In this document: piece after piece, positions 36,183 to 37,448 of the stretch
How the letters are laid out: every line of letters begins with the position of its first letter
How positions within the stretch are numbered: the first letter of the stretch is position 1
Assembly: GCA_902551735.1 (NCBI GenBank)
Contig: CACDEK010000003.1
Coordinates: forward strand, 1 to 38,947
Length of the DNA: 38,947 nucleotides
Direction of reading: 5' to 3'
Source of the DNA: an uncultured Pelagibacteraceae bacterium
GTDB taxonomy: Bacteria; Pseudomonadota; Alphaproteobacteria; Pelagibacterales; Pelagibacteraceae
The notes under the pieces: generated by a model
What the model was told of the DNA's origin: nothing
The model's input: only the letters and a program-made list of their open reading frames with translations
Database searches by the model: none
Position numbers and translations under genes: made by a program

Positions 36183-36779
36183 ATGAATAATATTGATTTT
36201 TATTTCTCTATTGGAAGTACTTATACTTACCTTTCGATTACAAGAATTTTAGATGTTGAAAAAAAACATAATATAAAATTTCAATGGAAACCATTCAGTG
36301 TAAGAGTAATCATGAAAGAAATGAACAATATTCCTTTCCCTAAAGATAAACAAAATAAAGTTGATTATATGTGGAGAGATATTGAAAGACGTGCAGAGGG
36401 TTACGGTTTTTTTGCAAAGACACCTGTGCCCTACCCTTTAACTCAATTCGATTTAGCAAATAAACTTGCAATACTGGGATTAAAAGAAGGATGGGGAATT
36501 GATTATGTTAGAACAACCTACAGAAGATGGTTTCAAGAAGGAAAAGAACCAGCGATAGAACCTAATATTTCTGAGATATGTTCAGAACTTAAATTAGATA
36601 AAGAAAAAATTATTACAAAAGCAAATTCTGAAGAAATAGAAAAAGAGTACTTAGCTAATACCGAAAGTGCAAGAAATAATAAAATTTTTGGTAGCCCTTC
36701 ATTCATAGTTAATAATGAAATTTTCTGGGGAGATGATAGAATGGAAGATGCTATAACTTGGTCGAAAAAAAATGGGTAA
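36183..36779 (+). CDS. 2-hydroxychromene-2-carboxylate isomerase-like (DsbA/GST-kappa family)
   Basis: 'IDFYFSIGSTYTYLSITRI', 'IFGSPSFIVNNEIFWGDDRMEDAI'. Confidence 0.88.
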   Translation: MNNIDFYFSIGSTYTYLSITRILDVEKKHNIKFQWKPFSVRVIMKEMNNIPFPKDKQNKVDYMWRDIERRAEGYGFFAKTPVPYPLTQFDLANKLAILGLKEGWGIDYVRTTYRRWFQEGKEPAIEPNISEICSELKLDKEKIITKANSEEIEKEYLANTESARNNKIFGSPSFIVNNEIFWGDDRMEDAITWSKKNG

Positions 36780-37110
36780 TATTACAGCTTATATAATTTT
36801 AATTGTTGCAGTAGTTTTGGGTACAGCTTCAAATGGTTTCGCTAAAGGAGCTCAGGGTTTTACATTGTTAATACCAAGTGTTTTAACAGCAATAACTATT
36901 GTCGGATGTATGTATACTTTATCTCTTGTAATGAAAACAATTCCTGTTGGAATTACTTATGCATCGTTTGCTGGATTATGTATTATCGCGACTACAATAG
37001 TTGGGATGTATAAATTTAATCAAATGCCTGATCTTTATACAATATTAGGACTTGCTTTAATTATTGCAGGTGTATTAATTGTAAACTTGCTAGGTAATAC
37101 AAATAATTAA
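36772..37110 (+). CDS. SMR-family membrane protein 1 (lacks EmrE Glu14 equivalent)
   Basis: 'MKTIPVGITYASFAGLCIIATTIVGMYKFNQMPDLYTILGLALIIAGVLIVNLLG' SMR pattern. Confidence 0.85.
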   Translation: MGNITAYIILIVAVVLGTASNGFAKGAQGFTLLIPSVLTAITIVGCMYTLSLVMKTIPVGITYASFAGLCIIATTIVGMYKFNQMPDLYTILGLALIIAGVLIVNLLGNTNN

Positions 37111-37112
37111 TA

Positions 37113-37448
37113 ATGAATCAATTTTCTGGATATATTTTTTTAGTATTAGCAGTAATTTTTGGAATTGCCTCTAATAGTTCTTTAAAAATGACTGAAGGTT
37201 TTACAAAACTTGTTCCTTCAATTTATTGCTCAGTATTAATTGTTTTATGTATTTTATTTTTAGCTAAAGCAATGATGACGATACCAGTTGGTTTTACTTA
37301 CGCTACTTATGGAGGTCTGACAATTACAGCTGTAACAATTTTTGGTATCTTAAAATATAATCAGATGCCAAATCTATATGGAATAATTGGCATTGCTTTA
37401 ATTGTAGTTGGTGTTTTAGTTGTTAATTTATTAGGAAAAGCTAACTAA
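37113..37448 (+). CDS. SMR-family membrane protein 2 (lacks EmrE Glu14 equivalent)
   Basis: 'LKMTEGFTKLVPSI...MTIPVGFTYATYGGLTITAVTIFGILKYNQMPNLYGIIGIALIVVGVLVVNLLG'. Confidence 0.85.
   Translation: MNQFSGYIFLVLAVIFGIASNSSLKMTEGFTKLVPSIYCSVLIVLCILFLAKAMMTIPVGFTYATYGGLTITAVTIFGILKYNQMPNLYGIIGIALIVVGVLVVNLLGKAN

Follow-up and report, generated by a model that had tools for sequence, protein, structure and literature searches.

A Gly14/Asn18 branch of the SMR family in SAR11 bacteria lacks the central glutamate

Two adjacent genes in the DNA analyzed here (38,947 nucleotides from an uncultured Pelagibacteraceae bacterium, referred to below as the window) encode proteins, A and B, in which glycine replaces the central glutamate of the SMR family. 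Judged from their sequences, A and B are paralogues that belong to a single SMR subfamily, the Gly14/Asn18 clade, which occurs in SAR11 and in one further alphaproteobacterial order. With a probability of roughly 0.5, we consider the best explanation to be a new SMR subfamily whose members would form dual-topology, alternating-access dimers that work without Glu-based H+ antiport on a non-cationic substrate, the latter by analogy with lipid-type SMRs. A and B would then probably carry a molecule that is uncharged or lipid-like, with none of the customary proton exchange. Within the open-access literature this branch of the family is previously unremarked; a search of open-access papers found none on Glu14-less SMRs of SAR11, so an earlier description elsewhere is possible.

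The assembly that contains the window comprises 856 kb in 60 contigs and is 64% complete. All of its closest named relatives belong to Pelagibacteraceae or elsewhere in SAR11. Genes A and B lie tail to head on the plus strand with 2 bp between them, and the pair stands at the end of a series of small genes that share its direction (33203-36779; gaps of -8 to 78 bp).

33875..34792, + strand: 3-hydroxyisobutyrate dehydrogenase-like protein (TIGR01692, 360.6 bits), in the same co-directional run, with a 78-bp gap to the next gene
34871..35167, + strand: small protein of 98 aa without a Pfam match, near 25 of 47 distinct A/B loci
35180..35467, + strand: DUF1330 protein (PF07045, 115 bits)
35469..35789, + strand: DUF4440/SnoaL-like protein (PF14534, 29.7 bits)
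35799..36182, + strand: VOC/glyoxalase-fold protein (PF00903, 39.7 bits)
36183..36779, + strand: DsbA-like thioredoxin-fold protein (PF01323, 98.8 bits), upstream of A and overlapping its start by 8 bp
36772..37110, + strand: SMR protein A, 112 aa, Gly14/Asn18 type, with G14, N18, K22, Y60 and F63 and FAGLC in TM3 (PF00893, 53.2 bits)
36820..36822, + strand: GGT codon for residue 17 of A, Gly at the EmrE Glu14 position by translation and alignment
37113..37448, + strand: SMR protein B, 111 aa, Gly14/Asn18 type, with YGGLT in TM3 (PF00893, 66.4 bits)
37161..37163, + strand: GGA codon for residue 17 of B, Gly at the EmrE Glu14 position by translation and alignment
37449..37841, - strand: AhpD/carboxymuconolactone decarboxylase-like protein (PF02627, 71 bits), convergent with B

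The AhpD-like gene is found directly 5' of B in 7 other loci. Elsewhere in the window, positions 4144-6177 form a single long ORF that by eye joins a class-II-aldolase-like N-terminal part to a short-chain dehydrogenase-like C-terminal part.

Pfam scores, a sequence match to EmrE and a predicted fold all identify the two proteins as genuine SMR proteins. Both exceed the PF00893 cutoff of 23.7 bits, covering profile positions 2 to 93 of 93, and the clade profile retrieves EmrE from the PDB at 5e-20. An AF2 model of protein B (22 sequences in the alignment; pLDDT, 80.8; pTM, 0.64) contains four helices, at residues 3-26, 33-56, 59-82 and 88-107, and in the PDB it matches only EmrE and Gdx-Clo significantly (TM-score, 0.74 to 0.81).

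Alignment of A and B to EmrE, anchored on Lys22 and the GFT motif, places Gly17 of both proteins at the position of Glu14, Asn21 of both at that of Thr18, and Phe (A) or Tyr (B) at that of Trp63, as the original prediction had stated for the first and third of these positions. Its further claim that TM1 lacks a carboxylate holds more widely: no Asp or Glu occurs in any predicted TM helix of A, B or 156 distinct relatives, and none was found elsewhere in the substrate site. The finding that Glu has been lost is therefore independent of the exact alignment. A shifted alignment with another carboxylate in TM1 was rejected, as TM1 has none.

The set of 156 relatives spans Pelagibacteraceae, both inside and outside the window's genus, together with a sister family and, from a second order of Alphaproteobacteria, families f32 and f142. 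For comparison we took 56 canonical SMRs, some alphaproteobacterial and the rest from elsewhere in Pseudomonadota. Gly14, Asn18 and the switch residue Tyr60, which almost every SMR subtype keeps, are present in 156/156 relatives, and the conserved Pro/Gly frame is retained. Position 63 is Tyr in 109 and Phe in 47 but never Trp, and position 67 is T, C, V or A in every case and Gly in none, which marks the loss of the GXG fulcrum of TM3. All 56 canonical proteins keep Glu14, Trp63 and Gly67 of the GXG motif. The Gly14/Asn18 pattern, at 156/156 against 56/56 for the canonical residues, thus appears in these alignments far beyond chance. None of the 156 proteins has the hallmarks of the Qac, Gdx and polyamine subtypes (central Glu14, Trp63 and TM3 GXG). 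Among proteins from the best phylum-level matches, there were no further-removed Gly14 SMRs in other Pseudomonadota.

The comparison set includes a third SMR of the window's genome, encoded on contig C10 (G000:C10:16079-16393; L001:1492-1821). It is an ordinary Glu14/Trp63 protein with the motif CEVAGT and a Pro at the position of Lys22, and its gene lies directly 3' of a propionyl/acetyl-CoA-synthetase-like gene (named by eye). In family f32 of the other order, a divergent Gly14/Asn18 SMR (L136/L163, L210-L220) has no in-frame ATG, GTG or TTG where homology begins; the codons upstream read MR*ISK.

In a maximum-likelihood tree, the 47 nonredundant Gly14 rows form a single branch with support of 100/99 and a stem length of 2.35. 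We claim monophyly alone from this tree: its small number of columns restricts resolution of the finer branching, and the placement of the long reference branches (Gdx, MdtIJ and ArnEF) is unreliable. The tree and the alignments show a single common ancestor in which Glu was lost together with the change of Thr18 to Asn, the change of Trp63 to Phe/Tyr and the loss of the TM3 GXG. The idea of a distinct subfamily with a shared 'ASN' motif is borne out, since the clade is monophyletic and conserved and has an S/A-N motif in common. The replacement shared by A and B, which the original prediction had taken as a sign of a distinct subfamily and perhaps of an obligate heterodimer, was inherited from one common ancestor and does not reflect partner co-evolution.

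Of the 198 genomes surveyed at the order level, all at least 85% complete except the window's own, 166 matched the clade profile, although in about ten of these the score lay only in the range of canonical SMRs. Several genomes of 87 to 95% completeness contain no member. The median dN/dS within orthologue sets is 0.11 for A and 0.10 for B (Nei-Gojobori), with synonymous sites far diverged; values of about 0.1 indicate that the clade is under purifying selection. Retention of the gene in a small genome implies that it is used. Pseudogene decay was rejected on the basis of these ratios and the intact reading frames. A scan of viral contigs found no relative, and the SMR relatives in plasmid and phage collections are all less than 60% identical, the annotated ones listed being ordinary SMR/qac genes. 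An origin from a mobile element or resistance cassette was rejected on these results.

By profile and in the tree, the Qac-type proteins (EmrE and QacC/QacE) are nearest to the Gly14 clade. A and B share with them the fold, length, Lys22, GFT, Tyr60, Pro32/55, Gly90/97 and Asn102, but the clade differs in Glu14 to Gly, Thr18 to Asn, Trp63 to Phe/Tyr and the loss of GXG, so that the proton-coupling residue is gone. The closest functional analogue, as far as residues can tell, is instead the lipid type, ArnE/ArnF, the undecaprenyl-phosphate-Ara4N flippase. Like the Gly14 clade, it has no central Glu, an amide at position 18 (Gln there and Asn here), Tyr60, no Trp63 and no GXG (PMC9574504); in our alignment, ArnE and ArnF of Escherichia coli K-12 have Ser/Ala at 14, Gln at 18, Leu at 63 and no GXG. 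The assertion that Glu14 is the coupling residue in all characterized SMR subtypes was therefore mistaken. ArnE/ArnF are not close kin, however. The ArnE model scores A at only 17.7 bits (cutoff, 92; E = 0.003), and the tree puts ArnE/F outside the clade, with branches of great length. With kinship this distant, the likeness is convergent. ArnE/F also form a heterodimer with a charge bias of -4/+5, whereas the Gly14 pair is unbiased, and the window has no arn-type operon.

The central Glu of EmrE, Gdx and the polyamine SMRs serves as the binding site for the cation and also for the protons exchanged against it, and the conformational switch of these proteins is driven by Tyr60 (PMC9574504; PMC11133458). 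Because the carboxylate that binds cation and proton is absent, it is close to certain, given this established biochemistry, that Glu-based antiport has been lost in the Gly14 clade; the original prediction that A and B are not ordinary Glu14 drug/H+ antiporters is supported. In the cycle that we propose, each Gly14 protein would insert in both orientations, as a K/R bias near zero suggests, and antiparallel dimers would form, as homodimers, with mixing of A and B possible but not required. These dimers would alternate access by the ordinary rocker-switch, with no Glu-based exchange of cation and H+. Asn18, Tyr60 and Phe/Tyr63 would line a neutral pocket, and the substrate of such a pocket would most likely be neutral, zwitterionic or lipid-like, moving down its own gradient as proposed for ArnE/ArnF. 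Among the SMR subtypes described so far, only the lipid SMRs take non-cationic substrates; many of them have no central Glu, and they are possibly uncoupled (PMC9574504). From this parallel, and from the loss of Glu, Trp and GXG with the switch Tyr kept, we infer an uncoupled facilitator or flippase, one that may lack any coupling. A lipid moved by the clade would not be an essential one, since members are missing from several of the more complete genomes.

Gene neighborhoods bear on the substrate in two ways. Among the 47 distinct A/B loci, an inositol-monophosphatase-family gene is nearby in 39, a DUF2798 gene in 37, a SnoaL/DUF4440 gene in 34 and a DUF1330 gene in 30. Such a set of neighbors resembles a detoxification or small-molecule island and names no substrate. 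The neighbors in the window itself (DUF1330, SnoaL-like, glyoxalase-fold, DsbA-like and AhpD-like) suggest small-molecule detoxification rather than lipids, which counts against our preferred reading. The DUF2798 membrane protein (73 aa; e.g., L044:6051-6272) is the commonest direct neighbor of Gly14 SMR genes and is missing beside the window's pair. In g282, another genus of Pelagibacteraceae (L072-L133; e.g., L082:6042-7320), there are 50 loci in which an NDUFA9-like SDR gene precedes a lone Gly14 SMR gene, in most cases overlapping it by 4 bp. These genes lie beside one of two sets, either a ugp-like ABC transporter with a glycerophosphodiesterase or a DAGK-like lipid kinase with a metallophosphoesterase and a glycosyltransferase; in the second, the lipid-kinase gene is on the opposite strand across a gap of about 343 bp. 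This second set resembles the phosphate-starvation lipid-renovation genes of SAR11. The g282 arrangement is a possible tie to lipid or phosphate metabolism and weakly fits a lipid connection, although these lipid-gene neighbors belong to relatives in a genus other than that of the window.

Coupling by other means is plausible, with no proton coupling equally likely. Taken as a full account, a differently coupled antiporter or symporter seems unlikely: H+ or another ion could be coupled through Lys22, Tyr60 or the TM2 Lys49 of most B-type proteins, or the cargo could be an anion or zwitterion (a methylated osmolyte, for example), exported through an aromatic cage of Tyr60 and Tyr63. In favor of this reading, Lys22 is conserved in the Gly14 clade (155/156), Lys/Arg is common at position 49 (109/156), and a TauD-type dioxygenase gene lies near 33 of the 47 A/B loci. 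However, Lys22 is no novelty, being present in 44 of the 56 canonical SMRs as well, a convergent gene lies between the TauD gene and the SMR genes, and the Gly14 proteins retain no proton-carrying carboxylate.

We regard as improbable an obligate A/B heterodimer with asymmetric roles, which the original prediction had raised as a possibility. A and B sit side by side in the same direction in the window and in 20 surveyed loci, and two adjacent SMR genes are also what the paired SMRs MdtI/MdtJ, EbrA/EbrB and YkkC/YkkD have. Adjacent heterodimer-forming pairs, however, show opposite Arg/Lys biases of around +4/-4, as do more than 95% of paired SMRs, whereas singletons center on zero (PMC9574504). 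The K/R bias is 0 for both A and B, compared with -5/+5 for MdtI/MdtJ, which also keep Glu14, and -4/+5 for ArnE/ArnF by the same formula; clade-wide means are 0.66 (A-type) and 0.98 (B/C-type). Moreover, A and B are convergent in G034, on different contigs in G009 and G019, and about 29 kb apart in G005. In G541 (100% complete, one contig) and G449 (99%), the sole SMR match is of the Gly14 type, and the one-contig genomes G012 and G357 each have one Gly14 gene and one canonical gene. Zero bias together with unlinked or lone genes means that the clade does not require an obligate heterodimer; A and B could possibly mix in the window's organism.

More doubtful still is a transport-dead partner or modulator of a canonical Glu14 SMR from another locus of the same genome. 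The window's genome does encode such a protein on C10, and EmrE forms mixed dimers of wild type and E14Q (PMC11133458), but G541 and G449 have no canonical SMR match, and the invariant pocket residues N18 and Y60 would be needless in a dead partner. Finally, misassignment of an EamA-type DMT protein, in which Glu14 is not expected, is very improbable and was rejected: B matches PF00892 at 23.4 bits, below the cutoff of 28.2 and far below its PF00893 score, and has a TM1 pattern (G..SN...K) that resembles EamA, but A has no match at E of 0.001 or less, the clade falls among Qac-like SMRs in the tree, and the predicted fold is that of EmrE and Gdx-Clo.

A more tentative extension of the facilitator reading is that the clade is functionally a fifth subtype of SMR, one that moves a non-cationic substrate as a facilitator or flippase independent of protons and that would have arisen once in streamlined marine Alphaproteobacteria, from a Qac-like branch and independently of ArnE/ArnF, through the changes of Glu to Gly and Thr18 to Asn. 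Its SAR11 carriers are among the most abundant heterotrophs in the sea. The SMR family has been tallied as a detoxification transporter (PMC4161860); PF00893 matches in marine metagenomes should not be tallied as multidrug resistance. A large natural clade that lacks the central Glu, is under purifying selection and keeps the rest of the machine would offer a direct test of the need for this residue.
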